The notes under the pieces: model-generated
Seen by the model: only the letters and a program-made list of their open reading frames with translations
What the model was told of the DNA's origin: nothing
The model's database searches: none
From: Bryobacteraceae bacterium
GTDB lineage: Bacteria; Acidobacteriota; Terriglobia; Bryobacterales; Bryobacteraceae
DNA: 64,000 bases
Reading direction: 5' to 3'
Assembly (NCBI GenBank): GCA_026129905.1
Contig: JAHCHE010000023.1
Coordinates: 62,001 to 126,000, forward strand
Program-made: the position numbers and the translations under genes
In this document: positions 4,386 to 40,613 of the stretch, in pieces
How positions within the stretch are numbered: the stretch's first letter is position 1
Layout of the letters: every line of letters starts with the position of its first letter

Positions 4386-4389
4386 CACC

Positions 4390-4863
4390 ATGCCAGAAGC
4401 GCAATCGGAAGACAAAAGGCGAGAAGGACGGCCGCCCCGGGAAGGGCGGGAAGGCGGGAGGGACCCCCGAGGAGAAGGACGAGGACCACGCGGCCAGGAC
4501 CGGGACCGCGACCGGATGGGGCCGCCGGAAATCGACCTGGACAAATTGATTGCCGACAGCCTTTACCTGGACAACCAGGCGCACGGCGTGGTGGCCCGCA
4601 TGCGGGACATGGATTCCGGCACCAAGAGCCAGTTGCGCCGCCTCTACAACGCCGTCCGGCGGGCCTGCCGGGCGCCGGAGAACGAGCGCCAGCACCAGTT
4701 CGTGATGCTGCGCGCGCGCCTGGCCTACACCATCGCGCGCCATTCCCTGCGCAGCTTGGATACGCTGGAGCGCCTGCTGCTGCAGGTGACCCGAAAGAAC
4801 GACAACCGCGGATACGAACGCTTCCGCGATCTTTTCGAGGCGATCATCGCCTACAACGAATAG
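4390..4863 (+). CDS. csm2: Csm2 small subunit (Cas11) of type III-A complex
   Basis: A 157-residue helical protein starting 4 bp after cas10. Position and the C-terminal two thirds (helical, ending RFRDLFEAIIAYNE) fit Csm2, the small subunit that lines the inner belly of the Csm complex along the crRNA/target duplex. The first 45 residues are an unusual, very charged Arg/Gly/Glu/Asp-rich disordered tail (EGREGGRDPRGEGRG and similar) that may add RNA affinity; this is inference. Identification rests on operon context plus the C-terminal pattern, since Csm2 is poorly conserved in sequence. Confidence 0.85.
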   Translation: MPEAQSEDKRREGRPPREGREGGRDPRGEGRGPRGQDRDRDRMGPPEIDLDKLIADSLYLDNQAHGVVARMRDMDSGTKSQLRRLYNAVRRACRAPENERQHQFVMLRARLAYTIARHSLRSLDTLERLLLQVTRKNDNRGYERFRDLFEAIIAYNE

Positions 4864-4872
4864 CGAGGAGTC

Positions 4873-5709
4873 ATGAGCGCCCACACTGCGGATACGGAAC
4901 TGAAACTGATTGGAAAGCTGATCCTGGACGCGGAACTGCATTGTGAGACCGGGCTCCACATCGGCGCTGGCAAAGGTTCGCTCGAAATCGGGGGCGCGGA
5001 CAACCCCGTCGTGAAGGACGCCTTCGGACATCCTTACGTGCCCGGCAGTTCGTTGCGCGGAAAGCTGCGATCGTTGCTGGAGCAGGCCACCGGCGCCGTC
5101 TCCCCGTCGGAACTCGTCTACCTCTCCCGGCGTAAGGGGCAGGAAGTGCGCATTCACCAGAGTGACCGCCCCGACGACGAGATCTGTCTCCTGTTCGGGC
5201 GCAGCCCCGGACGCGTCGACCGCGTCAGCGGCGAGGCCGTCGAAACCAGCTCCGCCAGCCCGGCGCGGCTCTCGATCTATGACGCGCCGCTGGAACTCGG
5301 AAGCATCACCGATTCGATGCGCGAGAATCTGGACGATGAACTCACCGAGGTGAAAAGCGAGAACGCCGTTGATCGCATCACGTCGCAGGCGAATCCACGC
5401 ACCTTGGAACGCGTGCCCGCCGGCGCGCGCTTCAAGGTCCGCATGGTGCTCGATGTTCTGTGCGAGGAGGACAAGGAGCTCCTTGCCCGGGTGGCCGAAG
5501 GCCTGAAACTGCTCGAAGACGACAGCCTTGGCGGCGGCGGATCGCGCGGAAGCGGACGGATCCGGTTCTCCGGCGTCAGGCTGCTGTGGCGCGGACGCGG
5601 CTATTACAGTTCCGGCGCCCAGGAGGCCGAACTGCTGTCCGGCGCGGACCTGGGGGCGTTCCAGAGGCTCGCACAGGATCCGGAGCTCGCCGGAAAGCTC
5701 GCCGAGTAG
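4873..5709 (+). CDS. csm3: Csm3 (Cas7-type RAMP, target RNA cleavage subunit)
   Basis: Backbone subunit of the Csm complex; in characterised systems several copies bind the crRNA and each cuts target RNA with 6-nt spacing. The 278-residue protein has the family hallmarks: ETGLHIGAGKGSLEIGGADNPVVKD near the N-terminus, the RAMP motif PYVPGSSLRGKLRSLLE, and the glycine-rich loop LGGGGSRGSGRIRF near the C-terminus. Asp43 in ADNPV aligns with the catalytic Asp33 of Streptococcus thermophilus Csm3, so target RNA cleavage should be intact. It starts 9 bp after csm2, with GAGGAG before the ATG, and ends 3 bp before csm4. Confidence 0.93.
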   Translation: MSAHTADTELKLIGKLILDAELHCETGLHIGAGKGSLEIGGADNPVVKDAFGHPYVPGSSLRGKLRSLLEQATGAVSPSELVYLSRRKGQEVRIHQSDRPDDEICLLFGRSPGRVDRVSGEAVETSSASPARLSIYDAPLELGSITDSMRENLDDELTEVKSENAVDRITSQANPRTLERVPAGARFKVRMVLDVLCEEDKELLARVAEGLKLLEDDSLGGGGSRGSGRIRFSGVRLLWRGRGYYSSGAQEAELLSGADLGAFQRLAQDPELAGKLAE

Positions 5710-5712
5710 CCC

Positions 5713-6759
5713 ATGGAATCGGGCTTGCTCGTCCGTCTGCGGCCCGCCGGCCCCTGGCGCTTCGGTTCCGACTCGGGCGATCGGGACGGACTGGCGCCGC
5801 TCTATCACAGCGATACGCTGTTCTCGGCGGTCACCGCCGCCATGGCCACATTGGGAAAGCTGGACGACTGGCTGACCGCAACGGCATTGGCGGCCGGGCA
5901 GCCTGACGTTCGGTTCACCTCCTTGTTCCCGTGGCAAGGCGACCTGCTGTACATATCGCCCCCGAGGAACGTCTGGCCGCCTGCCTCGACGAAGGTCAGG
6001 ACCAAGGGAGCGGCATTCGCGCCTCTCCCGGTTGTGGCGGCGCTGCTAGCCGGAACGCCGTTCGACGAGGACCGATGGACGGTGGACGGTGAAAGCCGGT
6101 GCCTGCTCTTCACGCCCGGAAAGGCGCAGCCGACAGGGCCGTTCCGCCAGGCCATGCGCGCCTTTGCGGCGGTGGATCGCCTGCGGCCGGGCGTGATCGC
6201 GCCGCACCGGGCCGCCTGCATCGAATTTTCGCCGGACAGCGGGCTGTGGTGCTTTGCCGCCTTTCGCGATGACGACGCGAGCGGCCGCTGGTCCGGATAC
6301 GTTGAGGGCGCCTTCCGCCTTCTGGCCGATTCCGGTTTCGGAGGGCGGCGGTCGATCGGCTGGGGCCGCGCCGTGGTCGAGGAAGCGCGGACCTGCTCTT
6401 TGCGCGACCTGGTTCTTGCGCCGCCGCCGGCCGATCGGGCTCCGGACGAGACCGTTCCCGCGCCTCCTCCCGCAACGGCCTACTGGCTCCTCTCGCTGTT
6501 CCGCCCTGGCCAGAACGAGGCGGTGGACTGGCGCGAGGGGGCCTACTCCCTGATCACCCGGGGCGGGCGCACCGAGAGTCTCCAGGGCTGGGGCCGGGCC
6601 AAGAAGCAGCTCCGGATGGTGGAGGAAGGTTCCGTCGTCCTCTCCGCCGCGCCGCCGGACGGTTCGGCGGCCGACGTCGCGCCGGATGGCTTTCCACACC
6701 CGGTCTTCCGCTACGGATACGCCGTCGCGATCGCTTTGCCGGAGCGCCCCGTCCAATGA
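5713..6759 (+). CDS. csm4: Csm4 (Cas5-type RAMP, crRNA 5'-handle subunit)
   Basis: Csm4 caps the 5' handle of the crRNA and contacts Cas10. The 348-residue protein starts LLVRLRPAGPWRFG and has PLYHSDTLFSAVTAAM, the usual Csm4 N-terminal pattern. A glycine-rich segment FGGRRSIGWGRAVVE (about residues 210-225) follows, and a second conserved block near the C-terminus (LITRGGRTESLQGWGRAKKQ). It starts 3 bp after csm3 and its stop overlaps the csm5 ATG by 4 bp, showing tight translational coupling. No sign of damage. Confidence 0.9.
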   Translation: MESGLLVRLRPAGPWRFGSDSGDRDGLAPLYHSDTLFSAVTAAMATLGKLDDWLTATALAAGQPDVRFTSLFPWQGDLLYISPPRNVWPPASTKVRTKGAAFAPLPVVAALLAGTPFDEDRWTVDGESRCLLFTPGKAQPTGPFRQAMRAFAAVDRLRPGVIAPHRAACIEFSPDSGLWCFAAFRDDDASGRWSGYVEGAFRLLADSGFGGRRSIGWGRAVVEEARTCSLRDLVLAPPPADRAPDETVPAPPPATAYWLLSLFRPGQNEAVDWREGAYSLITRGGRTESLQGWGRAKKQLRMVEEGSVVLSAAPPDGSAADVAPDGFPHPVFRYGYAVAIALPERPVQ

Positions 6760-7904
6760 AATATCGCCTGACTTGCCTTACGCCTCTACTGGTCGGCGAT
6801 GGTTCCAAGCTCTCGCCGATCGACTACATGGTGTGGAAGGACCAGGTCAACGTGCTCGACCAGTCCCGGATTTTCCGGCTGCTGTCGAAAGGCCCCCGGC
6901 TGGAAAACTATCTTAAGCAGCTCAGCAAGGCGGAAAAGCTGGACTTCGCATCGTGGGGCGGGTTCGCCCAGAATTTCGCCCGGCGCCGAACCCCGTTCGA
7001 GCACCCCAGCTACACCGCCTTCTGGCAGAAACTGCCCCCGCCGGACCTGTTCATTCCCACCTTCGCCACGGGCCCCGCCGGACCGTACCTTCCGGCCAGC
7101 GCGCTGCGCGGCGCCATGCGAACCGGACTGGTGTTTTCTCGGGGCATTGGTCGGGCGATGACGGAGCTGGCCTCTCTCCCGCCGGGCGACCGCACGTTGC
7201 GGCAGCCGGGCCGCGCGGCGGAGGAGCAGGCGCTGGGGGACTCCAGCCGCTCCCAGCTTAAGACGCTCAGCCTGGCCGACTCGGCTCCCATCCCGGAGAA
7301 TTCCTTCAAGGTGTACATGCTGCGGGTCTCGACCCTGGAGCGCCGCCCGCCCGGCAGAGTCGAGCTGCGCTGGAAGCAGTCGCCTCGCGGCAGCGTCGAA
7401 GGACGGCGGGCCGAAGACAGCACGCCGCAGTTCGCCGAGATGGCCAACCCGGGCGTAACGTTCGAGGGTTCCTGGACCCAACGCGAGTTTCTGCAGCAGC
7501 CCGAGATCGCCCGCGCGCTGCGTTGGAAGACGCCGCTGACGTCCGCGGCCTTGTTCGAGGCCGTGAACGCCTTTGCCGCCGCGCAACTGGCGGCGCACAA
7601 AGCCTACGCGGCCGCCGCGGGCCTCTCGTATCTGGAGCAGAATCTCGCCGCCCTCGAGGCGCGGCTGGAATCGGCGCGCCAGAGCGGGGCATGCCTGGTC
7701 GCGCTCGGCTGGGGCAGCGGCTTCTTCAGCAAGGTGGCCTCGCTGGACACCGACGGCGACAGCTACCGCCGGATTCTGGGTCAAAGCTCTCTGTATAATA
7801 AAGTACTTCGGCCGGGAGTCCCCTTTCCGAAAACGCGCCGCATCGTGTTTCTGGAAAACCGGCCGGCTACGCTCGCGGGCTGGGCCTTGCTTGAGCTGGT
7901 CTGA
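6756..7904 (+). CDS. csm5: Csm5 (Cas7-type RAMP, crRNA 3'-end subunit)
   Basis: Csm5 caps the 3' side of the complex and takes part in crRNA maturation by recruiting host nucleases. This 382-residue protein begins MKYRLTCLTPLLVGDGSKLSPIDYMVW, the characteristic Csm5 opening (TPLxIGxG...LSPxDYV). It contains PYLPASALRGAMRTGLVFS, the RAMP helix motif, and a C-terminal GWGSGFFSKV glycine-rich loop. It overlaps csm4 by 4 bp and is the last recognisable gene of the operon. No cas6, csm6/card1 effector, adaptation gene or repeat array follows. Confidence 0.9.
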   Translation: MKYRLTCLTPLLVGDGSKLSPIDYMVWKDQVNVLDQSRIFRLLSKGPRLENYLKQLSKAEKLDFASWGGFAQNFARRRTPFEHPSYTAFWQKLPPPDLFIPTFATGPAGPYLPASALRGAMRTGLVFSRGIGRAMTELASLPPGDRTLRQPGRAAEEQALGDSSRSQLKTLSLADSAPIPENSFKVYMLRVSTLERRPPGRVELRWKQSPRGSVEGRRAEDSTPQFAEMANPGVTFEGSWTQREFLQQPEIARALRWKTPLTSAALFEAVNAFAAAQLAAHKAYAAAAGLSYLEQNLAALEARLESARQSGACLVALGWGSGFFSKVASLDTDGDSYRRILGQSSLYNKVLRPGVPFPKTRRIVFLENRPATLAGWALLELV

Positions 7905-26595: not shown

Positions 26596-28161
26596 ATGCG
26601 TTACTGCGTCGCTCTTTCTCTGCTCCTATGCCTCGCGATGGCCTCCTGCTCCCGCCAGGAGCCCGCCGCGCCCGAAACCCGCGAAATCTCCATGGCCGCC
26701 CTTCAGGACAAGATCAAAGGCGGGTGGGCCGGCCAGATGATCGGCGTCAGCTACGGCGCGCCAACCGAGTTCCGCTATCGCGGCGAGATCATTCCCGAAG
26801 ACAAGCTCCCCCAGTGGAAGCCCGAAATGATCCACGAAGCGCTGGACCAGGACGACATCTACGTCGACATGACCTTCGCCGAGGTGCTCGAGCGCAAGGG
26901 CCTCGACGCCACCACGGAAGATTTCGGCGAGATGTTCAAGAACAGCCAGTACCGCCTCTGGCACGCCAATATGGCCGCCCGCCGCAATCTCCAGCACGGC
27001 GTCCCCGCCGCCGACTCCGGCCATCCGCGCCACAACATCCACGCCAATGACATCGACTTCCAGATCGAGGCCGACTTCATCGGCCTGATGACGCCGGGCC
27101 TGCCCCAGGCCTCGAACGACTACTGCTGGCGCGCCGGCCGCGTCATGAATTACGGCGACGGCATCTACGGCGGCATGTTCGTCTGCGGGATGTACTCGGC
27201 CGCCTTCTTCGAGAGCAATCCCCGCAAGCTCGTCGAGGCGGGCCTCGCGTGCCTGCCGAAAGAGAGCCCTTACGCCCAGATCATCGCCGATTCGCTCGCC
27301 TGGTCCAACCAGCACCCCGGCGACTGGACCAAGGTCTGGCAGCTCATCCAGGACAAGTGGGACAAGCGCGATCCCTGCCCTGCCGGCGCTCTGCTGCCGT
27401 TCAATATCGACGCCAAGCTCAACGGCGTCTACATCGCTCTGGGCCTCCTCTACGGCGAGGGCGATTTCGAAAAAACACTCAAGATCTCTACCCAAGCCGG
27501 TCAGGATTCCGACTGTAACCCCGCCAGCGCCGGCGGCATCCTCGGCGTCGTCTACGGCTACGACCGCATCCCCGATGTCTGGAAGAGCGGCATCCCCGCC
27601 ATCGAAGACAAGAAGTTCGCCTACACCAACCACACTTTCCGGTCCATCGTCGAAAGTTCCACCCAGCGCGCCGTCGAACTCGTCCAGCGCCACGGCGGCC
27701 AGTTCCAGGGCGACACGCTCGTCGTGCGCGTCCAGGATCCCACGCCCGCCGCGCTGGAAACCTGGGACGACTACGGTTCGCCCGTCGAGCGCATTCCGCC
27801 CACCGACAGCCGCTGGACCTGGACCGGCCGCTGGGCCCCGCAGCCCAAGAGCCCGGAACTTCGCGCCTCCTCCACCAAGGGCGCGGAAGCCACCGTCAGC
27901 TTCGAAGGAACCGGCTTCATCCTCGCCGGAACCTACCTCCCCACGGGCGGCAAGCTGGACGTCCAGGTCGACAGCCAGCCCGCGGAAACCGTGGACGTCT
28001 ACATCCCCGAAGGCGACGGCCAGCGCGGCAACGAATCCGTCTTTCACCGCTTCGGCCTCGCCGCCGGCAAGCACACCGTCAAAGTGGTCGTGCGGGGCGA
28101 ACCCTACGAAGGTTCCAAGGGACGCGACGTCGTTCTCAAGGACCTGATCGTCTTCCGCTAA
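26596..28161 (+). CDS. ADP-ribosylglycohydrolase-like lipoprotein
   Basis: A 521-residue protein with a lipoprotein signal (MRYCVALSLLLCLAMASC, lipobox before Cys18). The ADP-ribosylglycohydrolase fold follows: KIKGGWAGQMIGVSYGAP, an acidic metal motif QDDIYVDMTFAEVL, and AGQDSDCNPASAG (Asp304, Asp306), which corresponds to the second metal-binding motif. The last 150 residues form a beta-rich domain (SRWTWTGRWAPQ, VSFEGTGFILAGTYL) resembling carbohydrate-binding or esterase-associated sandwiches. Exported ARH-like proteins of this type are probably glycoside-processing rather than ADP-ribose hydrolases (inference). It ends at a GC-rich hairpin. Confidence 0.85.
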   Translation: MRYCVALSLLLCLAMASCSRQEPAAPETREISMAALQDKIKGGWAGQMIGVSYGAPTEFRYRGEIIPEDKLPQWKPEMIHEALDQDDIYVDMTFAEVLERKGLDATTEDFGEMFKNSQYRLWHANMAARRNLQHGVPAADSGHPRHNIHANDIDFQIEADFIGLMTPGLPQASNDYCWRAGRVMNYGDGIYGGMFVCGMYSAAFFESNPRKLVEAGLACLPKESPYAQIIADSLAWSNQHPGDWTKVWQLIQDKWDKRDPCPAGALLPFNIDAKLNGVYIALGLLYGEGDFEKTLKISTQAGQDSDCNPASAGGILGVVYGYDRIPDVWKSGIPAIEDKKFAYTNHTFRSIVESSTQRAVELVQRHGGQFQGDTLVVRVQDPTPAALETWDDYGSPVERIPPTDSRWTWTGRWAPQPKSPELRASSTKGAEATVSFEGTGFILAGTYLPTGGKLDVQVDSQPAETVDVYIPEGDGQRGNESVFHRFGLAAGKHTVKVVVRGEPYEGSKGRDVVLKDLIVFR

Positions 28162-28374: not shown

Positions 28375-31002
28375 ATGTTGGACTCCGGCTTCATCGCCCA
28401 CTACGAGCTGCTCGAAAAACTGGGCGAAGGCGGCATGGGCGTCGTCTACAAGGCCCGCGACACGCGGCTCGACCGCCTGGTCGCCATCAAGGTCCTGTTG
28501 CCGGAAAAGGTCACCGATCCCGACCGCAAGCGCCGGTTCATCCAGGAAGCCAAGGCCGCCTCGGCGCTGAACCACCCCAACATCGTCACCATCTACGACG
28601 TCGATCACGCCGAAGGCGTCGACCTCATCGCGATGGAGTACGTCGACGGCCGGACGCTCGACCAGGTGATCGGCCGCCGCGGCATGAAGCTCGACGACGC
28701 GCTCAAATACGCCACCCAGATCGCCTCCGCCCTCGGCGCCGCCCACGCCGCCGGCATCGTGCACCGCGACCTCAAACCGAATAACGTCATGGTCACCGGC
28801 GCGGGCGTCGCGAAGGTCCTCGACTTCGGCCTGGCGAAATTAACCGAATTAACGCTGAAAACCCGCGAGGAGCTCGAAACCCGCACCTTCCTTAACGCCG
28901 AAACGTTGAAAACCATCGAAGGGTTTGTCGTCGGCACCGCCGCTTACATGTCCCCCGAGCAGGCCGAAGGCAAACCGGTGGACGCCCGCTGCGACATCTT
29001 CGCTTTCGGCGCCCTGCTCTACGAGGCCGTCACCGGCCAGCCCGCCTTCCTGCGCGACTCGCGCATGTCCACCCTCGCCGCCGTGCTTCGCGAAGATCCC
29101 AAGCCGCCCAGCGAGGTGACCGCCGGCACGCCGCCGGAGTTGGAGAGGATTATCGCCCGCTGCCTCCGCAAGGATCCCGACCGCCGCTATCACCACATGG
29201 CCGACGTCAGGCTCGCCCTTGAAGAGGTCAGGGACGAAGCCTCCTCCCCAGCCGCGAATGCGGCCCTGTCCCCGGTCGCCCGGTTCCCTTATAAGGCGGC
29301 CGTCGCCGCCCTGGCCGCGCTCATCCTGTTCGCCGTCTGGCTGGTTCGCCAGAATGCCCGCCCCGTACAGGTCCGCTGGAGCTTCACCCAAATCACGGAC
29401 CAGCCCGGCCCCGAGTTCTTCCCCAGTCTCTCGCCCGATGGCAAGACTGTCGTCTACGCCGCCCGGGCCTCGGGCAGTTGGGACATCTTCGCCCAGCGCG
29501 TCGGCGGGAAGAACGCGACGAACCTCACCCGCAACTCCGCGGCCGACGAAACGCAGCCCGCCTTCTCCCCCGACGGCGAGCGTATCGCGTTCCGCTCCGA
29601 GCGCGACGGCGGCGGCATCTTCATCATGGGCGCCACCGGCGAAGCGCTCCGCCGCATCACCGCCTTTGGCTACAACCCCGCCTGGTCGCCCGACTCCACC
29701 CGCATCGTCGTCGCCACCGAGAGCATCGCCCGCCCGGAGGACCGCTTCGTCCCGGTCAGCCGCCTCTGGATCGTGAACCTCTCCACCCAGCAGACCCGGC
29801 TGCTATCCAACCACGACGGGGTGCAGCCGCACTGGTCGCCCCGCGGCTACCGCATCGCCTACTGGGCCTCCCGCGCCGGCCAGCGCGACATCTGGACCAT
29901 CTCCGCCGATGGCGGCGAGCCGGCGCCGGTCACCCAGGATACCCACGTGGACTGGAACCCGGTCTGGTCGCCCGACGGCCGCTATCTCTACTTCCTCAGC
30001 GACCGCGGCGGCCCGATGAACCTGTGGCGCGTGCCCGTCGATGAACACTCCGGCGAAGTGTTGGGAGAGATCGAGCCGGTCACCACCCCGTCCTCGGACA
30101 CCGGCCAAATCAGCATCTCCCGCAGCGGCCACATCGCTTACGCGCACCAGGTCTCCACCGCCCGCCTGCACCGCGCCGCCTTCGACCCCGTCGCCGGTAA
30201 GGTCAACGGCCGCAGCGTGGATATTACCGGAGGCGCCCGCCAAGCCGTCCGCCCGGACCTCTCCCCCGACGGCGCCTGGCTGGCCTTCTGTTCCTGGGGA
30301 CGCCTCCAGAACATCCTCCTGGTTCGCACCGACGGCACGGACCTGCGACAGTTGACCGACGATCCCTATTTCGACCGCGGCCCCCGCTGGTCGCCGGACC
30401 AGTCGCAGATCGCCTTCTTCAGCAACCGCAGCGGAAGAAACGAGATTTGGGTGGTGCGTCCCGACGGCAGCGGTCTCCGCCAGGTCAGCAACGTCGCCTC
30501 CAACGCCGTCTGGCCCGTCTGGTCGCCCGACGGCAAACGCATGGTCTACACGGCATTCGGCGCGGGCCGGAGTTCGTTTCTCGTCGAGGACGTTTCCCAG
30601 GCCGCGGAGCAGACGCCGCGCCAACTGCCTGCCCCCGGCGCGAAGGAGGCCTTCAACGCCTGGCATTGGTCGCCCGACGGCGAAAAGCTTTCCGGCTTCC
30701 TGCAACATGAGGACGGCGGCTTCACCGGCATCGCCGCCTATTCGTTGAAGACAGGCGCTTATACCCGCCTCACCTCGTTCGGCCTCGACCCGGTCTGGCT
30801 CAGCGACAGCCGCCGCCTGCTCTTCACGCACAAAGGAAGGATCTGGCTGGCCGGTCCCGATAATGGCGAGGCCCGCGAGGTCCTCTCGGCCGCTCCGAGC
30901 GAAGTGGCCCCGCGCGGCTTCGCCATCTCCCGCGACGACCGCGCGATCTACTTCAGCCTCGCCGCCACCGAATCCGACATCTGGCTCGCCCAGAGCAACT
31001 AA
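28375..31002 (+). CDS. Transmembrane Ser/Thr protein kinase with PD40 beta-propeller
   Basis: An 875-residue signalling protein. The cytoplasmic kinase domain (residues 8-270) has LGEGGMGVVYKA, the ATP lysine in VAIK (Lys39), the catalytic loop HRDLKPNN (130-137), DFG (Asp150), and AYMSPEQAEG. A single transmembrane helix lies at about 305-325 (AAVAALAALILFAVWLV). The rest is a periplasmic TolB/PD40-type propeller with repeated SPDGxxIAF motifs. This kinase-PD40 architecture is characteristic of Acidobacteriota. The last 53 bp of the gene before the stop codon's final bases are repeated exactly 4.95 kb downstream. Confidence 0.93.
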   Translation: MLDSGFIAHYELLEKLGEGGMGVVYKARDTRLDRLVAIKVLLPEKVTDPDRKRRFIQEAKAASALNHPNIVTIYDVDHAEGVDLIAMEYVDGRTLDQVIGRRGMKLDDALKYATQIASALGAAHAAGIVHRDLKPNNVMVTGAGVAKVLDFGLAKLTELTLKTREELETRTFLNAETLKTIEGFVVGTAAYMSPEQAEGKPVDARCDIFAFGALLYEAVTGQPAFLRDSRMSTLAAVLREDPKPPSEVTAGTPPELERIIARCLRKDPDRRYHHMADVRLALEEVRDEASSPAANAALSPVARFPYKAAVAALAALILFAVWLVRQNARPVQVRWSFTQITDQPGPEFFPSLSPDGKTVVYAARASGSWDIFAQRVGGKNATNLTRNSAADETQPAFSPDGERIAFRSERDGGGIFIMGATGEALRRITAFGYNPAWSPDSTRIVVATESIARPEDRFVPVSRLWIVNLSTQQTRLLSNHDGVQPHWSPRGYRIAYWASRAGQRDIWTISADGGEPAPVTQDTHVDWNPVWSPDGRYLYFLSDRGGPMNLWRVPVDEHSGEVLGEIEPVTTPSSDTGQISISRSGHIAYAHQVSTARLHRAAFDPVAGKVNGRSVDITGGARQAVRPDLSPDGAWLAFCSWGRLQNILLVRTDGTDLRQLTDDPYFDRGPRWSPDQSQIAFFSNRSGRNEIWVVRPDGSGLRQVSNVASNAVWPVWSPDGKRMVYTAFGAGRSSFLVEDVSQAAEQTPRQLPAPGAKEAFNAWHWSPDGEKLSGFLQHEDGGFTGIAAYSLKTGAYTRLTSFGLDPVWLSDSRRLLFTHKGRIWLAGPDNGEAREVLSAAPSEVAPRGFAISRDDRAIYFSLAATESDIWLAQSN
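30948..31000 (+). repeat. 53-bp direct repeat, copy 1
   Basis: The 3' end of the kinase gene (encoding YFSLAATESDIWLAQSN and the first base of the stop) is identical, base for base, to 35899-35951. This copy is followed by AATAACG, giving a TAA stop. Confidence 0.95.
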
Positions 31003-31152
31003 TAACGAGAGCTGCTCGCGCCACCCATCCGCTTGCGCCAGCCGGCCCCCTCCGACACAAGATCAAGCTTTCGCTCAAAGGCTTTCGCAACCTCACGAAT
31101 CCATTCCCTTGCCATTAGAAGATAAACAGGATCTAATATCGTAGAGGTATAA

Positions 31153-34100
31153 ATGATGCCGCGCCTCCTCCCTTTCACCATGGTTGGCGTGTACCTCTGC
31201 GCCGGTGCGAGTGCGGCGCAGTCGCAACCTCAGGATTCCTTGATCTTCCGCGTTAGAGGTCAGGACCATGTGGTCCAGAACAAGATGGTCCAGACCCTGC
31301 GAAGCGCCTGGGCTGCTCAGAAACCTGCTACGGAACAGATGTGGAAGGACGCCGTCAACAATGGCGGGAAAAAGACGTGGGAAGGCCACGTTTGGATTTT
31401 CATTGGAATCATACCTGTGCCGGTCCCATACAGCTACACCGTGCAGTGCAGCGATACTTCGGTCTCCATTCCGGATTTACCCAATATCACGCTAAGCCGG
31501 GGTTCCGCCACCAACACATTGGAGTTCCAGGCCGCCGTGACACTCAATTGGACAACCCACCTTCGCGGCAGCAACGGCTCGGTTCATGCCGACGCAAGCT
31601 TCACTACCGTGATCAAGGTCAACGGCGTGGCGGAACTGAAGCGGGACCAGACCGGGTACTATTTGCAGATCACCAGCGCGACGTCCGATGTGGCGACTAA
31701 CACGAATGGCAGCATAACATTTACCGTCAATATTTTGAACATCGGGACGTTGTCGTTTACGTGGCAGAAGCTCGATCTGTTGCTGAAGGCAGACATTGAC
31801 AAGAAAGTAAAGAAGAGACTCGGCGACGAACTCGGCAAACCGATCGTAACGAAAGCGTACTACCTGGCGGACCTGTTCGCCTACCTCAAGCCCGGCGTTA
31901 ACCCCCTAGTGGAGGCGCTGCTATTTCCCATCTATTCTTATCTTTCAGAGCGAGGCAAGATTGCCTACTCCCTGTTGAGCGAAAAGGGCGTCCCGGTTGT
32001 GGAGCTCGTGTTCGGAAATCCGATCGCAGGAGCCTGGCAAGCCGAGAAGACGCAGCACCCGCGTCTTTTGTACACGGCCGCTGAGCGGAGCCAGATCAAG
32101 GCGAAGCGCGGCGCGAATGTGACCAAAGATCTGTATTCCGCCATCAAGACTCTCGCGGCCGAAAATCCGGCCTTCGGGGTTGCCGGCCCCGACGGTCTCC
32201 TCTCGGTCGAAGAATGGGGGAAGGAGGTCAGGAACGCCCAAATTGCCGTTGCGGCCTCCGTCGTCTACGACCTGGACGCAAACCCAGCGGCCAAAGAGCA
32301 AGCGCTCACGGTCTTGCTCAACTTCAGAGACAAAGTCCCCGATCCCCTCTTTACTCCTGCGTGGGGTTTCAAGAGCCTCTATACGGCCGAAGTCCTGCTT
32401 GATCTATGCCAGGCGTACGATCTCCTGCGGGGCGCCGGTGTTGCCGCCAATCCTGCCATAGAAGCAAAGCTCAGGAACCTTCGAAACGTCACGTATCTCC
32501 AGACGCATATCTGGAACCTTATCGCGAACCTGAACATCGCCGTCCGGAACGCCGCCGCCCTGGGCGCCTCCGCCATCCTGTTCAATCGGGAGGCGGACGC
32601 ATATGAAAACATCAGTCTGGCAATGTCGGTGATGTGGCAAAAACTGGGGCTTGCGTCGGCAGGCGCATTTCTGGACGTGGCCCAGTTCACCAAGGCCAGC
32701 GAGGGGGGAGGCTATTCCGAAGGCCCGGGTTACCTCGATTACGCCGCCGAACTTTACCTGCCGTTCATGTGGTCTTACAATCGGTTCGCCGGCGGCGCAA
32801 CTACAAGTCCGGGCGCTTTCATTTATAACGACTGGGTGAATCAATATGCGATCGCGGCGCCGGACTTGCTGACCAGCGAGAGAGTCCGGCGCATCCACGA
32901 GTGGGGTCTCCGAATCTCACTTCCCGATGGAAGCCGGCCACCGCTGAAAGATTCCAATCCCGGCGCGTCGGGTTTCTCCGGACTTCTGGCGAACGCGATC
33001 GCCACCCCCAATCCGATCCTGAGGTCGGTCTGGGCATGGGACTTCGAGCGAAGCGGCTACCCCGTTGGCCGCCGCCTGGTGGACGCCTTCGTCAGCTTCG
33101 ACCCCGCGGTTCTCAACACCGCCATGGACCCGTCCTCTTTGTACCCCAGCCCAACGATGGTCATGCCCGACACCGGCAACGTCGTCTTCCGCAGCGGCTG
33201 GGGCGTCAACAGCCTTTACATGCACGTGCTCGCCGATTCCAACTGGCGCGCCGGGGACGTGGTTGGCGGCATGCGGTACCCGACCCACCAACAGGAAGAC
33301 AACACCAGCTTCCTGATTCACGCTTACGGCAGTCCGCTGGCGATCGACAGCGGCTATGGTCATTCGTCTGTCAGTGAGGCCGTCTCTAAAGGACAGAATC
33401 ACAATCTGGTGCTCGTCGACGGCAAAGGTCCTCCAAGCGCGACCGAGGCGGCTGTAAGGGCATTCAAAGAAACTCGCTTTGTAGATTATGCTCAGGTTTC
33501 CGCCGCGTATCAGAACGCTGCTTTCGAGCGGCACGCCTTGCTTGTCGGCGACCGCTACTTCGTCGTTGTCGACGAAATCTCATCAAGCATCAGCCACCAG
33601 TACGATTGGCGCTTCCATGGACACGGGCAGTTTTCGGCGGCAGAGAAGGGCGGTATGTGGGCAGCGCCAGGCGGCCAAAGGATTCTGCTGAGACTCGCCA
33701 ATACTAGTCCCAACAGCGTCGATGCGTTTCTTACCGAACAGGCGCCCCATTACTGGGCCTCGCCTGGCGCTCCCGGACAGCCTGGATACCACCATACCGC
33801 CCTGTCGGGCCGTGAGACGGCTGCCGGCAACATCAAATTCCTGGCCGTGCTGTTACCGGCAGGGGCGGCCGATCCGCTTCCATCAGTCGCTGAGTTCTCC
33901 GAAGCCGGGGCTTTCACCGCCGCGAAAATTGCATTTGCCGATCACACCGACATCGTCGTCGTCAGGCATCCTGGTCGGACCAGAAGCTACACTCTGCGTG
34001 GGTCGGCCACCGGAGTGGACGATATCTACACGGATGCCCAGTTTGCGGTACTGCGAATTTCCAACTCAAACAAGAAAATGGCGGGCCTGTTTGCACGCGA

Positions 34101-35868
34101 AGTTTCCGATTTGTTCTATGGCGGCGCGCGCGTAGTCACTACGCCAACGTCTTTGGTCTCCGTGCTCGACAGCGATACCGACGGACTGTCCGACGATGAC
34201 GAACTGGCGCGTGGTACCGACCCTTTTAAGTGGGATACCGACGGAGATGGCCTCAGTGACTCCCTCGAGGTTGCGAACGGAAGCAACCCGCTCGTTCGAA
34301 ATGTGACGAGCGATTGGGATGGCGACGGCAGAGCCGACCTCGGCTTCTTCGAGCCCGCGGACTCCTCCTTCCACGTGAATCTTTCCACCGGGACGGCGTT
34401 CTTTGGCCCCGGCACTGGGAGATGGATCGATCCCAACCAGTGGGGGCATGCGTTCGGGCGGTTCTTTGTCGCTGACTTCAATGGCGACGGGAAAGCGGAT
34501 CTCGGTTTCTTCGAGCCGGCCGACAATTCCTTCCATGTGAACCTCTCGACGGGCAACGGCCTCTTCGGGGCGGGGAGTGGCCGCTGGATCAATCCCAATC
34601 AATGGGGGCATGCCGGCGGGCGGTTCTACATCGGTGACTTCAACGGCGACGGGAGATCGGATCTGGGATTCTTCGAGCCGGCCGACAATTCATTCCACGT
34701 CAACCTCTCCACCGGCGCGGGATTCTTCGGTCCCGGCAGCGGGCGGTGGATCACCGGCAATACGTGGGGAAACGCCGGTGGACGATTCTACGTGGGCGAT
34801 TTCAACGGGGACGGCAAAACCGATCTGGGCTTCCTTGAGCCGGCTGACAACTCTTTCCGCGTCAACCTGTCGACAGGAGCCGGTTTCTTCGGCCCCGAAA
34901 GCGGCCGCTGGATTGGCTCCAATCAGTGGGCCCATGCGGGCGGACGCCATATGGTTGCCGATTTCAACGGCGACCGAAAGGCGGACCTGGGCTTCTTTGA
35001 ACCTGCCGACAATTCCTTTCATGTCAATCTCTCTACCGGTACAGGTTTCTTCGCAGCCGGCAGCGGGCGCTGGGTTCCGCCAGGCGGATTCGGAAGTTCA
35101 GCGGGCAGATACTTCGTTGCCGATTTCACTGGCGATGGGCTTTCGGACCTCGCTTTTTACAACGTTCAGGACAATCTGCTCAAAGTGATCCGATCGGCCG
35201 GTACCCGGTTCATATCCGCATTCGGCTTCAGGATCGAACCCAACCACTGGGGTCGCCAGGCCGGGCGTTTCCTAATCGGGAATCCCACAACGGACGCCGA
35301 ATTTGGATACCCAGTTTTCCAGGAGCAGGCTTCATGGAAAGACGACTTCGACCGCTGGGGCTGGCACCCGACCCAACCGGACGGGCCCAACCTCTCAAGG
35401 AACTTTGCCGTCAGTCTCTCTTCTTCGGCGGGAACCGCCTACTTGGGCAGCGTTTCGGCTAAGCTCGAAATCCCGCACAACGGTTTTCGTGCGTCCGGAG
35501 CCTGGCACGCGCTGCTGCCCGACAGCACCGGCGCCCGGAATTTCGTCTTTGCGTTCCGGAAGACGAACCCCTCATCGGCCCTCCTTGTTTATTTCGTAGT
35601 GAATGGCTACCTTCATCAGGTCTGGGAGAAAGGCCATATCCAGCATTACCAGGGGTGGGAAATACCGTTTGCGAACGATACGGAATGGCATCTCGTCACG
35701 CTCTCTTTGGATCCAGCGGCAAAGCTGCCATCCACGATCGTCGATGAAAGGACCGGCACGTTGGAACCTTTGGTGTCTGCCGAGGGTCAGTTGACCTTTT
35801 TCGAGCTCGGCATGGGGGGGCAGGCCGGCGACAGGATCTACTTCGACAGTATTCGATTCATGGAGTAG
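31153..35868 (+). CDS. Giant exported heparinase II/III-like and FG-GAP repeat protein
   Basis: A 1,571-residue exported protein with a signal peptide (MMPRLLPFTMVGVYLCAGASAAQSQ). Residues about 300-950 resemble polysaccharide lyases of the heparinase II/III type: a helical alpha/alpha part (LLYTAAERSQIKAKRG) and a beta-sandwich with PTHQQEDNTSFLIHAYGSPLAIDSGYG and NLVLVDGKG. Then come thrombospondin-3-like calcium motifs (DSDTDGLSDDDE, DTDGDGLSDSLE). Next are about seven 55-residue FG-GAP/VCBS-like repeats (DFNGDGKADLGFFEPADNSFHVNLSTG), and finally a jelly-roll-like end. The N-terminal 280 residues are unrecognised. It lies inside a 4.95 kb unit bounded by an exact 53-bp repeat; third positions are less GC-rich than in neighbours. 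Confidence 0.85.
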   Translation: MMPRLLPFTMVGVYLCAGASAAQSQPQDSLIFRVRGQDHVVQNKMVQTLRSAWAAQKPATEQMWKDAVNNGGKKTWEGHVWIFIGIIPVPVPYSYTVQCSDTSVSIPDLPNITLSRGSATNTLEFQAAVTLNWTTHLRGSNGSVHADASFTTVIKVNGVAELKRDQTGYYLQITSATSDVATNTNGSITFTVNILNIGTLSFTWQKLDLLLKADIDKKVKKRLGDELGKPIVTKAYYLADLFAYLKPGVNPLVEALLFPIYSYLSERGKIAYSLLSEKGVPVVELVFGNPIAGAWQAEKTQHPRLLYTAAERSQIKAKRGANVTKDLYSAIKTLAAENPAFGVAGPDGLLSVEEWGKEVRNAQIAVAASVVYDLDANPAAKEQALTVLLNFRDKVPDPLFTPAWGFKSLYTAEVLLDLCQAYDLLRGAGVAANPAIEAKLRNLRNVTYLQTHIWNLIANLNIAVRNAAALGASAILFNREADAYENISLAMSVMWQKLGLASAGAFLDVAQFTKASEGGGYSEGPGYLDYAAELYLPFMWSYNRFAGGATTSPGAFIYNDWVNQYAIAAPDLLTSERVRRIHEWGLRISLPDGSRPPLKDSNPGASGFSGLLANAIATPNPILRSVWAWDFERSGYPVGRRLVDAFVSFDPAVLNTAMDPSSLYPSPTMVMPDTGNVVFRSGWGVNSLYMHVLADSNWRAGDVVGGMRYPTHQQEDNTSFLIHAYGSPLAIDSGYGHSSVSEAVSKGQNHNLVLVDGKGPPSATEAAVRAFKETRFVDYAQVSAAYQNAAFERHALLVGDRYFVVVDEISSSISHQYDWRFHGHGQFSAAEKGGMWAAPGGQRILLRLANTSPNSVDAFLTEQAPHYWASPGAPGQPGYHHTALSGRETAAGNIKFLAVLLPAGAADPLPSVAEFSEAGAFTAAKIAFADHTDIVVVRHPGRTRSYTLRGSATGVDDIYTDAQFAVLRISNSNKKMAGLFAREVSDLFYGGARVVTTPTSLVSVLDSDTDGLSDDDELARGTDPFKWDTDGDGLSDSLEVANGSNPLVRNVTSDWDGDGRADLGFFEPADSSFHVNLSTGTAFFGPGTGRWIDPNQWGHAFGRFFVADFNGDGKADLGFFEPADNSFHVNLSTGNGLFGAGSGRWINPNQWGHAGGRFYIGDFNGDGRSDLGFFEPADNSFHVNLSTGAGFFGPGSGRWITGNTWGNAGGRFYVGDFNGDGKTDLGFLEPADNSFRVNLSTGAGFFGPESGRWIGSNQWAHAGGRHMVADFNGDRKADLGFFEPADNSFHVNLSTGTGFFAAGSGRWVPPGGFGSSAGRYFVADFTGDGLSDLAFYNVQDNLLKVIRSAGTRFISAFGFRIEPNHWGRQAGRFLIGNPTTDAEFGYPVFQEQASWKDDFDRWGWHPTQPDGPNLSRNFAVSLSSSAGTAYLGSVSAKLEIPHNGFRASGAWHALLPDSTGARNFVFAFRKTNPSSALLVYFVVNGYLHQVWEKGHIQHYQGWEIPFANDTEWHLVTLSLDPAAKLPSTIVDERTGTLEPLVSAEGQLTFFELGMGGQAGDRIYFDSIRFME

Positions 35869-35898
35869 CCCGGCGCGGGCGAGGGCCAATGCCGCCGA

Positions 35899-35951
35899 CT
35901 ACTTCAGCCTCGCCGCCACCGAATCCGACATCTGGCTCGCCCAGAGCAACT
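35899..35951 (+). repeat. 53-bp direct repeat, copy 2
   Basis: Exact copy of 30948-31000, the 3' end of the kinase gene, here detached from any kinase and followed by GAGCGCC (TGA stop). It sits 30 bp after the giant gene's stop. Confidence 0.95.
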
Positions 35952-35983
35952 GAGCGCCCGCGCCGCCGTCTCACTGCCGCCTC

Positions 35984-36340
35984 TCACTTCGCCTCATCTC
36001 CCGCCGCGGAAGCTTCTCCTTCGATCAATTCGGCATTCACAAGCACCACGATTCCCTCCCGGATCATCGGCCGGATGACCGGCAGCGCCGCCCGCAGCCT
36101 GTCTTCACTGTCGATCGCCACCAGCGTCGCCGGCCTGTTGGCCACCAGGCCGAACAGCCCTTTGCGGTGGATCCGCCGGTGGATGCCGTATCCCATGATG
36201 CCGTTCAGAACCGTCGCTCCCGCCACGCCGTGCCGCTCGAGCTGCCGCACCAGTTCCTCGTGCAGCGGCGCGCCCTCCCATTCATCGGTGGCGTCAAAGA
36301 ACGCCAGGAGCGCTTTAACCGGAGGTTTCGGATTCCCCAT
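35984..36340 (-). CDS. DUF190 (PII-like) protein
   Basis: A 118-residue protein of the DUF190 family, which adopts a PII-like ferredoxin fold. FDATDEWEGAPLHEELVRQLERHGVAGATVLNGIMGYG and DSEDRLRAALPVIRPMIREGIVVL are the family's two signature regions. It is the last gene of the efflux operon and overlaps the end of the RND pump gene by 26 bp. Small PII-like proteins accompany CusA/CzcA pumps in other bacteria and may sense metals or regulate the pump; that role here is inferred from context. Confidence 0.85.
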   Translation of the reverse strand: MGNPKPPVKALLAFFDATDEWEGAPLHEELVRQLERHGVAGATVLNGIMGYGIHRRIHRKGLFGLVANRPATLVAIDSEDRLRAALPVIRPMIREGIVVLVNAELIEGEASAAGDEAK

Positions 36341-39300
36341 GCGCCTCCTCTCCGCGGCCGCCGCGAGCGCGCAGCCTTTCCACCAGATAATACAGGCTCG
36401 GCAGCGCGATCAGCGTCAGCGCCAGCGTCGACGACAGCCCGCCCACCACCACCGTCGCCAACGGCCGCTGCACGTCCGAGCCGATCCCCACCGCCCGCGC
36501 CGCCGGTATCATCCCCAGCAGCGCGACAATCACCATCATCAGTACCGGCCGGAACTTCGCCTCAGCCCCGCCGATCACGGCCTCCTCCAGCCCCCGTCCC
36601 TCCTCGCGCCGCTGCCGCCCGATCTCGGCGATCACCAGCACCCCGCTCATCACCGCCACCCCGAACAGGCTGATGAAGCCCACCGCCGCCGACACGCTCA
36701 GATTGATGCCGCGAATCCACAGCAGCAGGATTCCGCCGACCAGCGAGAACGGTACGTTCATCAGCACCAGCCCGGCTTCGGCCGCCGACCCGAACGCCAT
36801 GAACAGCAGCGCGAAGATCAGCGCCACCGTCATCGGCAGTACGATGCTCAGCCGGTGTCTGGCCCGCTCCAGGTTCTCGAACTGACCGCCCCATTCCACC
36901 TGGTATCCTTGCGGCATCGCAATCTCCCGGGCGAACCGCCGCTGCGCATCCCGCACAAAACCGCCCTGGTCCCTGCCGCGGATATTCGTTCGGACGGTCA
37001 TCTGGCGCTGGTTCTCCCGCCGCCCGATGATGCTCGCGCCGTTCACCACCTGGATTTGGGCCAGTTCCGACAGCGGAACCCGGGCCCCGTCCGCCGATCG
37101 CACCAATGTCGCGCTGAGATCGGCGATGTCGGCTCGCGCCGCCTCGACATACCGCGCCGTAATGTCGAACCGCCGCTCTCCTTCAAACAGCGTGCTCACC
37201 GGCCGCCCCCCCACCGCCAGCTCGATCAGCGCCTGCACGTCCTCCACGTTCAGCCCGTAGCGCGCCGCCCGCCGCCGGTCGATCAGCACCCGCAACTGCG
37301 CCTGGTCCGGTTCCTGCTCGATGGCCGAATCGGCGGCCCCGGGCACGGTTTGGATCAACGCCAGCGCCTGCTGCGCGATTCGCCGCAGCGTGGACAGGTC
37401 CGCGCCGGTCAGGATCACCGCCAGGTCCGCCGACGAGCCGGTGACCGACTCGGTCACCGTGTCGATGATCGGCTGCGTGAAGTTCAGCGTTGCCCCCGGG
37501 ATATTGCTCCTCAGGCGCGACCCCAACTCCTCCACCAGGTCCGCCTTCTTCTTTCCCGCCGACCACTCGTTGTACGGATTCAGCGTGATGAGAAACTCGT
37601 TGCGGTTCGGTCCGAACGGATCGGTCCCCGAATCGTTGCGCCCCGTCTGCGACGCGACCAGCTTCACTTCCGGCGATTCCCGGATCAGCCGCCGCATGTC
37701 CGAAGCGATCTCGGCCGATTTTTCCACCGAAGCGCCAGGGGGCAGGTTGGCGCGAATCCAGATGACGCCCTCGTCCAGTTGCGGCAGAAACTCCGATCCC
37801 AGCAGCGCCGCCACCAAAAAGGATCCCGCTACGACCAGCACCGCCCCGGCCACCACCGCGCCCGATCGCGGGATCGTCCGCCGCAGCAGGCGTCCGTAGC
37901 CGTTGTAGGCCCACCCGAACAGCGGATTGTCCCACGCCCGCGCCCCTTTCCGGAACACGTAGGTGGCCAGCACCGGGATCAGCGTCAGCGCGATCAGCAT
38001 CGAGCCGAACAGCGCCGCGCATACCGTGAACGCCATCGGGGTGAACAGCCGCCGTTCCACCCGCTCCAGCGTGAACAGCGGCAGGTACGCCGCGATCAGA
38101 ATCATCATCGAAAAGAAAATCGGACGTTCGATCTCCAGCGCCGCCGCGCGAATCCGGTCGAACGTCGATTCTCCGTGACGGCCGGCGTGCGACAGCCGGT
38201 GGACGATGTGCTCCACCATCACCAGCGTGCCGTCCACGATGATGCCGAAGTCCAGCGCCCCCAGGCTCAGCAGGTTCGCGGGCACGCCCGCGGCATTCAT
38301 CGCGATGAAGGCGAACAGCAGCGACAGCGGTATCGTGAGCGCCGTCAGCAGCGCCGCCCGCACGCTGCCCAGGAACAGAAACAGCACCGCCACCACGATC
38401 ACCAGGCCCTCGGCCAGCGTCTTCGACACCGTCCGCAGCGTGTTGCTCACCAGGTCGCGCCGGTCGTAGATCGGAACGATCCGGACGTCTTCCGGAAGCC
38501 GCTCGGCGTTCAGCCGGTCGATCTCCGCGCCCACCCCGCGGAGCACCTCGGAGGGATTCTCGCCGCGCCGCATCAGCACGATCCCTTCGACGCCGCCCGG
38601 CTTCTCGTCCACTCCGAAAATGCCCGTCGGCGGCGCCGCGCCGATCTTCACCCGCCCCACGTCCCGGACGTACACCGGGGTGCCGCCGCTGGCCGACAGC
38701 ACGATGTTATCGATGTCTTCCGTGCTCCGGATCAGCCCCACCCCGCGGATCACCATCGACTGCTGGCGGTTGTCCAGCAGCGCGCCGCCGGCGTTACGGT
38801 TATTGGCCTGAATGGCCTCGGAGATCCGCGAGATCGTGAACCCGTACTTCTCCAGCGACAGCGGATCGACTTCGATTTGGTACTGTTTGACCAAGCCGCC
38901 GAACGGGACGATATTGGCTACCCCGGGCACTTGGAGCAGCCGCGGCGCAATCACCCAGTCCTGCAATTCGCGAAGCTGGATTTCATCGACGCCCGGCGGC
39001 GCGTCGATCCGGTAGCGGAACAGCTCCCCGATCGGCGTCGAAAGCGGCCCCAGCGACGGCTGCGCTTCCGGTGGCAACTCCGCGTCGCGGAGCTTCTCCA
39101 GCACCACCTGCCGGGCGAAGTAATCGTCCGTATCGTGGGCGAACGTCAGTTCCACCACCGACAGCCCGTAGATGGTCCTGGAGCGTCTGGCGATCACGTT
39201 GGGAACGCTGTTCAGGGCGCGCTCGATCGGCACCGTGACCTGCTGTTCCATCTCCTCGGCGGCGTTGCCGGGCAGAGTGGTGATCACCACCACCTGGGTG

Positions 39301-39431
39301 TCCGAGATGTCCGGATAGGCTTCGATTTTGAGCTGCCGGAACGAATAGACGCCCAAGCCGATCAGCACGACGGCCAGCGCGACCGTGAGAAAGCGTTGAT
39401 GAAGAGCGAAGCGGAGAAGCTGGGCGATCAT
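36315..39431 (-). CDS. Heavy-metal RND efflux pump, CusA/CzcA family
   Basis: A 1,038-residue inner-membrane proton-driven transporter that expels metal ions through a CusCBA/CzcCBA-type tripartite channel. It has the full 12-helix RND organisation: an N-terminal helix (FLTVALAVVLIGLGVYSF), then EAYPDISDTQVVVITTLPGNAAEEMEQQVTVPIE. The transmembrane block contains DFGIIVDGTLVMVEHIVHRL, the HME-type helix 4 with its charged relay residues, and a second half ends at LIALPSLYYLVERL. Metal specificity is not read reliably; the CusA methionine triad was not identified, so Zn/Co/Cd/Ni or Cu/Ag remain open. Second to last gene of a minus-strand operon. Confidence 0.93.
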   Translation of the reverse strand: MIAQLLRFALHQRFLTVALAVVLIGLGVYSFRQLKIEAYPDISDTQVVVITTLPGNAAEEMEQQVTVPIERALNSVPNVIARRSRTIYGLSVVELTFAHDTDDYFARQVVLEKLRDAELPPEAQPSLGPLSTPIGELFRYRIDAPPGVDEIQLRELQDWVIAPRLLQVPGVANIVPFGGLVKQYQIEVDPLSLEKYGFTISRISEAIQANNRNAGGALLDNRQQSMVIRGVGLIRSTEDIDNIVLSASGGTPVYVRDVGRVKIGAAPPTGIFGVDEKPGGVEGIVLMRRGENPSEVLRGVGAEIDRLNAERLPEDVRIVPIYDRRDLVSNTLRTVSKTLAEGLVIVVAVLFLFLGSVRAALLTALTIPLSLLFAFIAMNAAGVPANLLSLGALDFGIIVDGTLVMVEHIVHRLSHAGRHGESTFDRIRAAALEIERPIFFSMMILIAAYLPLFTLERVERRLFTPMAFTVCAALFGSMLIALTLIPVLATYVFRKGARAWDNPLFGWAYNGYGRLLRRTIPRSGAVVAGAVLVVAGSFLVAALLGSEFLPQLDEGVIWIRANLPPGASVEKSAEIASDMRRLIRESPEVKLVASQTGRNDSGTDPFGPNRNEFLITLNPYNEWSAGKKKADLVEELGSRLRSNIPGATLNFTQPIIDTVTESVTGSSADLAVILTGADLSTLRRIAQQALALIQTVPGAADSAIEQEPDQAQLRVLIDRRRAARYGLNVEDVQALIELAVGGRPVSTLFEGERRFDITARYVEAARADIADLSATLVRSADGARVPLSELAQIQVVNGASIIGRRENQRQMTVRTNIRGRDQGGFVRDAQRRFAREIAMPQGYQVEWGGQFENLERARHRLSIVLPMTVALIFALLFMAFGSAAEAGLVLMNVPFSLVGGILLLWIRGINLSVSAAVGFISLFGVAVMSGVLVIAEIGRQRREEGRGLEEAVIGGAEAKFRPVLMMVIVALLGMIPAARAVGIGSDVQRPLATVVVGGLSSTLALTLIALPSLYYLVERLRARGGRGEEAHGESETSG

Positions 39432-39440
39432 GGGATTCGA

Positions 39441-40613
39441 TCAGTTGCTCCCCTCCAGCAGCATCGCCCCGTCGACGACGAGCCGGTCGCCGGCCTGGAT
39501 GCCCGCCAGCACCGGAACCAGTCCCTCGCGCGGCCTCCCGGGCTTCACGTCCACCGCCTCGAAATGGCCCGGCGCCTTTTCCCGCCACACCGACGTGCGC
39601 CCTTCGCGCTGCACCACGGCCTCCCTCGGGACCACCGGAACCGTCTCGAACGTCTCTTCGTGCCGGATCTCTCCGAACATGTTCGGGCGCAGCCGTCCCC
39701 GCGGATTCGCCAGTTCCGCGATCACCTGGATCGTCCGCGTCTCCGGGCTCACCGCGTCGGCGATTCGCGCCACGCGCGCGGAAAATTCCTCGCCCGGAAA
39801 GGCCGCCAGCCGCACGTCAATCCGCTCTCCTACCGTGATCAGCCGGATCATGCTTTCCGGAACATCCGCCGCCACGTACACCGAACTCAGGTCGGCGATG
39901 GTCATCAGCGGCGCGCTCGTGTCGTTGCGGAATTCCCCGGACGCCAGGCTGATCTCCAGTACCTTGCCGGATACCGGCGCGCGGACGGTGATCTCCTGCT
40001 GGTAGCCTCCGGGCTTCAGTCCCAGGATGTCCAGCCTACCCAGGCTCTCCTGGATGGCGGCGGCCGCCTGCGCCGCTTCCGCCTGCGCCTGCGCGAGCGC
40101 CGCTTCGGCGCCGATCACCTCCTTCTGCGCGATGGCGCGGTGTTCGAACAGCTCGCGCACGCGCGCCAGATCGGCCTCCGCCTTCGCCAGTTCCGCCTTC
40201 GCCTGACCGGCGCGCGCCTCCGCCTGCCGGTACGCCGCCATCAGCGTCGTCACCTCCGGGCTGTCCAGCGTGAACAGCGGCTGCCCCTCCCGCACCGCGT
40301 CCCCCAGCCCGACCATGATGCGCCCAATTCGCCCCGGAACCGGAACCGCGATCCGAGACACCCGCGTCGGAATGGCCTGTATCCGGCCCGGCGCCGTTAC
40401 CTCTTCCAGCGGCACGCGCGCCGTTTCCACCGCCGCCACCTTGATCCGCTGCAACTGCGGTGAATCGGGATCGAGGCGCGTCTCGCCGGCGCCCGCCCGT
40501 TGCTCGATGGCCGGTGCCGCGCCGTCTCGGGCGGCTTCCGCGTTCCCGTCGCGCGAACACGACGCCGCCAGCGCGCACAGGCAGGCGGCCCCGATCCACC
40601 GGGCCCCCCTCAT
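39441..40613 (-). CDS. RND efflux periplasmic adaptor, CusB/CzcB family
   Basis: A 390-residue membrane fusion protein that links the RND pump to the outer-membrane channel. A lipoprotein-type signal (MRGARWIGAACLCALAASC) anchors it. The order is typical: lipoyl half (VSRIAVPVPGRIGRIMVGLGDAVREGQPLFTL), a long alpha-hairpin coiled coil (AEARAGQAKAELAKAEADLARV), second lipoyl half (ITVRAPVSGKVLEISLASGE), and beta-barrel (SVYVAADVPESMIRLITVG). The N-terminal metal-binding extension of many CzcB proteins is absent. It starts 4 bp inside the end of the TolC-like gene and ends 9 bp before the pump gene. Confidence 0.92.
   Translation of the reverse strand: MRGARWIGAACLCALAASCSRDGNAEAARDGAAPAIEQRAGAGETRLDPDSPQLQRIKVAAVETARVPLEEVTAPGRIQAIPTRVSRIAVPVPGRIGRIMVGLGDAVREGQPLFTLDSPEVTTLMAAYRQAEARAGQAKAELAKAEADLARVRELFEHRAIAQKEVIGAEAALAQAQAEAAQAAAAIQESLGRLDILGLKPGGYQQEITVRAPVSGKVLEISLASGEFRNDTSAPLMTIADLSSVYVAADVPESMIRLITVGERIDVRLAAFPGEEFSARVARIADAVSPETRTIQVIAELANPRGRLRPNMFGEIRHEETFETVPVVPREAVVQREGRTSVWREKAPGHFEAVDVKPGRPREGLVPVLAGIQAGDRLVVDGAMLLEGSN

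Follow-up and report, generated by a model that had tools for sequence, protein, structure and literature searches.

The locus described here lies on contig C16 of the genome, within a window of 64,000 nucleotides (the whole stretch of DNA that was analyzed). Its kinase gene encodes an 875-residue protein with a Pkinase domain and PD40 repeats (28375..31002, plus strand), and we consider it the target of a proposed insertion that would have supplied its TAA stop codon. To its left, domain matches place an ADP-ribosylglycohydrolase-like gene (26596-28161). The convergent right neighbor, beyond the unit under discussion, is a DUF190 gene (35984..36340, minus strand), adjoined by an RND (ACR_tran) efflux gene (36315..39431, minus strand), both recognized by a domain match. 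Antisense to the DUF190, RND, and HlyD genes runs an open frame of 1,524 residues (35889-40463), probably a by-product of high GC content. Elsewhere in the window, PADLOC matches mark type III-A-like CRISPR effector genes (2925-7904), namely Cas10-like (2925-4385), Csm3 (4873-5709), Csm4 (5713-6759), and Csm5 (6756-7904).

The repeat and the unit it encloses

A repeat search returned two copies of a 53-nucleotide direct repeat, 100% identical, at window positions 30948-31000 and 35899-35951 and 4,951 bp apart from start to start, just as the initial annotation had described for a unit of about 4.95 kb. That annotation had taken the repeat for the last 53 coding base pairs before the kinase stop; measured against the kinase frame (28375-31002), the left, attL-like copy (plus strand) instead comprises 52 coding bases and the first T of the stop codon. 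The differing stops that had been reported are indeed there: the left copy is completed as TAA, whereas the right, attR-like copy (plus strand) is followed by GA and is thus completed as TGA. Read from the kinase, the inserted DNA begins with AATAA, and the gene ends in TAA TAA with the second TAA in frame.

The edges of the repeat are sharp: when the 100-nucleotide flanks were aligned locally, 18% of 500 shuffles did as well as the downstream alignment and 8% as well as the upstream one. Under a model of independent bases, about 1e-19 exact 53-nucleotide pairs within 60 kb would be expected by chance in the DNA scanned. Homologous integration of the Campbell type, in which RecA recombines the chromosome with a circular DNA carrying the heparinase-like gene and a copy of the kinase end, would also leave this arrangement, flanked on either side by identical repeats. 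The abrupt stop of identity at both ends speaks against it, as does the length of the repeat, 53 bp being short for efficient RecA recombination, and we regard this route as very unlikely.

In the 8.57 Mb of the genome, a degenerate 17-nucleotide pattern for the conserved end of the kinase gene had two matches, both of them the repeat copies, and a DNA search of the same genome with the whole region returned the region itself as its single match. These results bear on an assembly error, that is, a false join of two sequences sharing 53 bp. The draft genome comprises 71 contigs, its contamination amounting to 4.38%, and exact repeats of roughly this size can arise at assembly joins. A false join, however, requires the unit to be flanked by a kinase end elsewhere, and the pattern has no third match; the unit and both flanks are also contained in a single 144,859-bp contig. 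An artifact of this kind seems improbable.

Between the copies lie one gene of 4,716 bp (31153..35868, plus strand) and 182 bp of spacer, divided into a left part of 152 bp (31001..31152, unstranded; 51% GC, starting with AATAA) and a right part of 30 bp (35869..35898, unstranded; 83% GC). A consensus scan found no sigma-70-like promoter in the left spacer (two sites overall against 1.1 expected). By its domain matches, the gene encodes a heparinase II/III-like protein of 1,571 residues with TSP3 and FG-GAP repeats, in which the heparinase II/III-like domain is C-terminal (E 5.7e-11). Five direct repeats of 162 bp (34319..35128, plus strand), 63-75% identical to the first, correspond to FG-GAP-like units according to the repeat search and the domains. 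The protein is probably exported, judging by eye, rather than with a tool, from its signal-peptide-like N-terminus, and it looks like a sugar-cutting, polysaccharide-active enzyme encoded by a foreign-looking gene. The unit's GC content is 59.0%, against a mean of 64.4% for 768 half-overlapping windows of its length taken from the fetched sequence of its own genome, of which 2.6% are as low. The gene itself has 59.1% GC and, at 71%, the lowest GC3 among 12 genes compared; the kinase gene has 67.8% GC and a GC3 of 88%. The statement in the initial annotation that no integrase or transposase is present inside the unit holds, as the sole long gene is neither and the rest is the two spacers. With just 182 bp outside that gene, the unit shows no integrase remnant, and a profile search of the genome gave no match to PF00589 (tyrosine integrase) on contig C16.

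Relatives of the kinase, of the unit, and of the repeat

Searches with the C-terminal 536 residues of the kinase found relatives in 9 of the 80 other close genomes (E 1e-40) and, across the order, in 18 of 256 further genomes (E 1e-150), the best being 63% identical. Among those with the motif YFS...EADIWL, the C-terminus lies 4-7 residues past the motif (11 rows; of the 22 rows in the comparison of kinase ends, 20 were used, with the ends of L022 and L023 read separately). The kinase studied here ends 4 residues past it, within the range of its relatives, so the insertion kept the protein at a normal length.

The empty site, in which the kinase gene would be followed directly by DUF190, was looked for in relatives, as the initial annotation had proposed, and was not found among the kinase relatives and DUF190 relatives compared. 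The two genes occur together only in the genome's own locus among 72 loci (L003-L074, mostly with 1.5 kb of flank and several ended by contig ends). An RND gene adjoins DUF190 in 11 loci of relatives. Among the 72, L043, which has a kinase gene, was rejected as a shared neighborhood because its RND protein is distant (24% identity) and lies on the other side of the kinase. No empty site is visible because the relatives do not keep the neighborhood. Nor was the named sign of an old arrangement encountered, a gene order shared by many relatives but with diverged flanks. The 81 close genomes listed include no second species of the genus.

The unit itself was not found elsewhere in the sets searched. 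The whole protein (E 1e-20) matched in one of 80 other close genomes, with the match confined to the FG-GAP region. Its FG-GAP half had matches in 3 of the order's 256 other genomes, and its enzyme half (E 1e-20) had none in a phylum-wide sample of 395 other genomes. Scans of genome contigs and viral contigs, able to reach close relatives only, returned no copy of the unit, and the protein had no match among PDB sequences. Partial matches occurred in 84 plasmid records, the best listed (Hymenobacter) showing 26.5% identity over 39%. Two short matches of the left junction to phages (E 0.2 and 0.7) were taken as chance. The suggestion that the unit might stand beside other kinase ends elsewhere was thus not borne out in the genomes, contigs, and plasmids searched, and neither a second copy nor a circle was found in its own genome or in these sets.

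One relative, G017, bears on another origin of the repeat. The right copy could be the remainder of a former second kinase gene in tandem with the first, and in G017 (locus L048) a truncated second PD40 end does lie 2.2 kb past a full PD40 gene, with an exact match of 29 bp and toxin-antitoxin-like genes in between. There, however, similarity extends past the 29 bp, so that the pair fails the filter for isolated repeats and was rejected as a parallel, its second end lying within longer similarity as befits a relic of a paralog; here it stops at 53 bp. The two copies of our repeat are also identical even though the right one codes for no kinase, and a paralog relic at this locus appears highly improbable. 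As a side observation, the region past the PD40 regulator gene end in L048 (G017:C319, 688-3700) holds a MazE/VapC-like pair, DUF433/DUF5615 genes, the truncated second PD40 end, a PhdYefM/PIN pair, and a possible third short remnant. To the eye, the last residues of its DUF5615 frame (2567-2944), WVDGPEVEIPVK, are similar to the end of the adjoining Soli_cterm (TIGR03437) frame; the DUF5615 frame had no NCBIfam match.

As a control, 1,969,257 bases of the genome (23%) were read, of which 1,621,014 had not been chosen around integrases. A systematic scan for exact direct repeats, 20 bp or longer and with the two copies 0.3-60 kb apart, gave 191 pairs. Fifteen had unrelated flanks, and three of these were at least 45 bp long: the 53-bp pair, one of 49 bp at a tRNA-Arg gene (C1), and one of 45 bp at a tRNA-Gly gene (C71). 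The tRNA-Arg repeat overlies only the 5' half of its tRNA, and two PF00589 integrase matches fall between its copies; judging from other repeats, this island (C1:480235-493844) has a second integrase-like piece at its far end. Between the tRNA-Gly copies lies a weak PF00589 match, below the family cut-off, and the segment they bracket is very small (1.9 kb, C71:225771-227680), apparently a decayed island. A further pair, at a tRNA-Lys gene (C12), is 47/48 identical and spans a PF00589 match. Three of the 13 integrase neighborhoods examined have a tRNA repeat pair and ten do not, and the comparison with tRNA islands is biased because the C1 and C71 stretches were fetched for their integrases. 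With 63% GC, the three tRNA islands are less unusual than the unit.

In the stretches not picked for integrases, the isolated exact pairs of at least 28 bp were the 53-bp pair, one of 40 bp (C2), and one of 28 bp (C3). The C2 and C3 pairs belong to a dispersed repeat of 28-40 bp with the palindrome GGGACTCCCAGTCCC, which is present on several contigs (C2, C3, C24). Around related kinases, the longest isolated repeat in 103 stretches (1,132,823 bases, some overlapping) measured 21 bp.

Proposed integration at a gene end and its rivals

The repeat is a genuine, clean footprint that most likely stems from gene-end integration, in an unusually bare, single-gene form. With moderate confidence, we propose that foreign DNA integrated into the 3' end of the kinase gene, 53 bp of which would have served as the attachment sequence, probably through a tyrosine-type integrase that acted in trans or has since been lost. 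The incoming DNA would have arrived with its own copy of the kinase gene end. That copy would have restored the kinase frame with TAA as its new stop, and the original end, together with its TGA, would have been displaced to the far side, where it would now form the right copy. What is left over would be a one-gene segment between attL-like and attR-like repeats.

Such a course of events agrees with what is described for tyrosine recombinases, for which the review PMC5704250 gives att repeats of 8-60 bp and counts protein-gene 3' ends as integration targets. For the Candidatus Solibacter usitatus genome, a large one, PMC3174227 reports many integrase genes and candidate islands, without intact prophages. 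Judging from the named relatives of its kinase, the genome studied here is probably acidobacterial as well.

The initial annotation had proposed an insertion that duplicated its target edge. This claim is supported in part. On its side stand the sharp edges, the normal length of the kinase end, the lower GC content of the insert, the enzyme half without relatives in the genomes searched, and the 45-49-bp repeats around integrase matches at tRNA genes. No relative has the kinase directly before DUF190, since relatives do not share the neighborhood, the unit was not found in the other sets searched, and no PF00589 match lies on the contig. Against the integrase reading in particular stand the missing integrase, the bare one-gene content, the missing empty site, and the missing second copy, together with the unremarkable folding of the 53-mer and the points noted above on the three tRNA islands. 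Because neither an integrase on the contig, nor an empty site, nor a second copy or circle was found, we infer rather than observe the mechanism, and this includes the agency of a site-specific integrase, the choice of which copy is the original, and the excisability of the unit.

The same footprint might have come about by the repair of a break. If opposite strands were nicked 53 bp apart at the kinase end, filled in, and closed around a foreign fragment by non-homologous end joining, a long target duplication would result without any recombinase. Three Ku matches over the cut-off in the genome make the end joining of staggered nicks a real rival, and it accounts for the single-gene content, the missing integrase, and the missing terminal inverted repeats. 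Work on plants indicates that end-joining repair can yield duplications of arbitrary length. It does not predict, on the other hand, that the duplication would end within a stop codon and leave the gene intact (a result that selection to keep the gene functional could account for), nor that its size would come near that of the tRNA repeats of the same genome. All in all, we deem break repair unlikely.

If this is an integration footprint, it documents a single foreign gene for a polysaccharide-active enzyme that settled without harm just past the end of a protein kinase gene, with a defined 53-bp site on offer for excision testing. It is a single event in one genome and not yet a system.

Likeness to known mobile elements

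Exact duplication of the target on both sides of the insert recalls a transposon with its target-site duplication. Fifty-three base pairs is far longer than the usual duplications of this sort. A DDE transposon was rejected on two further grounds: the gene inside the unit is not a transposase according to its domain matches, and there are no terminal inverted repeats (61%, 91%, and 22% of 500 shuffles were as good for the three pairings of the 50-nucleotide ends). A related non-autonomous element is still conceivable.

A lone gene followed by a short repeat is likewise reminiscent of an integron gene cassette. This candidate was also dismissed, as there is no attC-like fold, the 53-mer folding no better than its shuffles (126 and 63 of 200 were as good); it differs further in that the PF00589 search revealed no integron integrase on the contig. 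More speculatively, the unit might be a minimal integrative cassette of one gene and no recombinase, which would use the copy of the kinase end as its address and rely on resident integrases in trans, thereby moving single genes for secreted enzymes between hosts within this bacterial group. We give this idea very little credence.

The genomic islands of tyrosine recombinases share the attL/attR layout, and the length of the repeat falls within the 8-60 bp range quoted above. They differ in carrying an internal integrase gene near the att site, which the unit does not have. The target differs as well, being a PD40 kinase gene here, whereas the three other repeat pairs in the same genome are at tRNA genes.

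Finally, the review PMC5704250 describes CIMEs (cis-mobilizable elements, decayed from ICEs or IMEs) as elements that retain attL and attR after the loss of their integration and transfer genes. The unit departs from them in carrying one gene only. Nor was a trace of an ICE or IME origin seen: no relative of the unit emerged from the close genomes, the phylum sample, the contigs, or the viral contigs, and plasmids gave only partial matches. Contig C16 also holds no neighboring integrase-bearing element with a matching att site, and since it has no PF00589 match, the unit is not filed as a working CIME. Like a CIME, on the other hand, it has direct repeats at the 3' end of an intact gene (known as repeats only), and it encloses neither integration nor transfer genes. 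It is best read as CIME-like, an integrase-less, single-gene remnant or passenger of gene-end integration.
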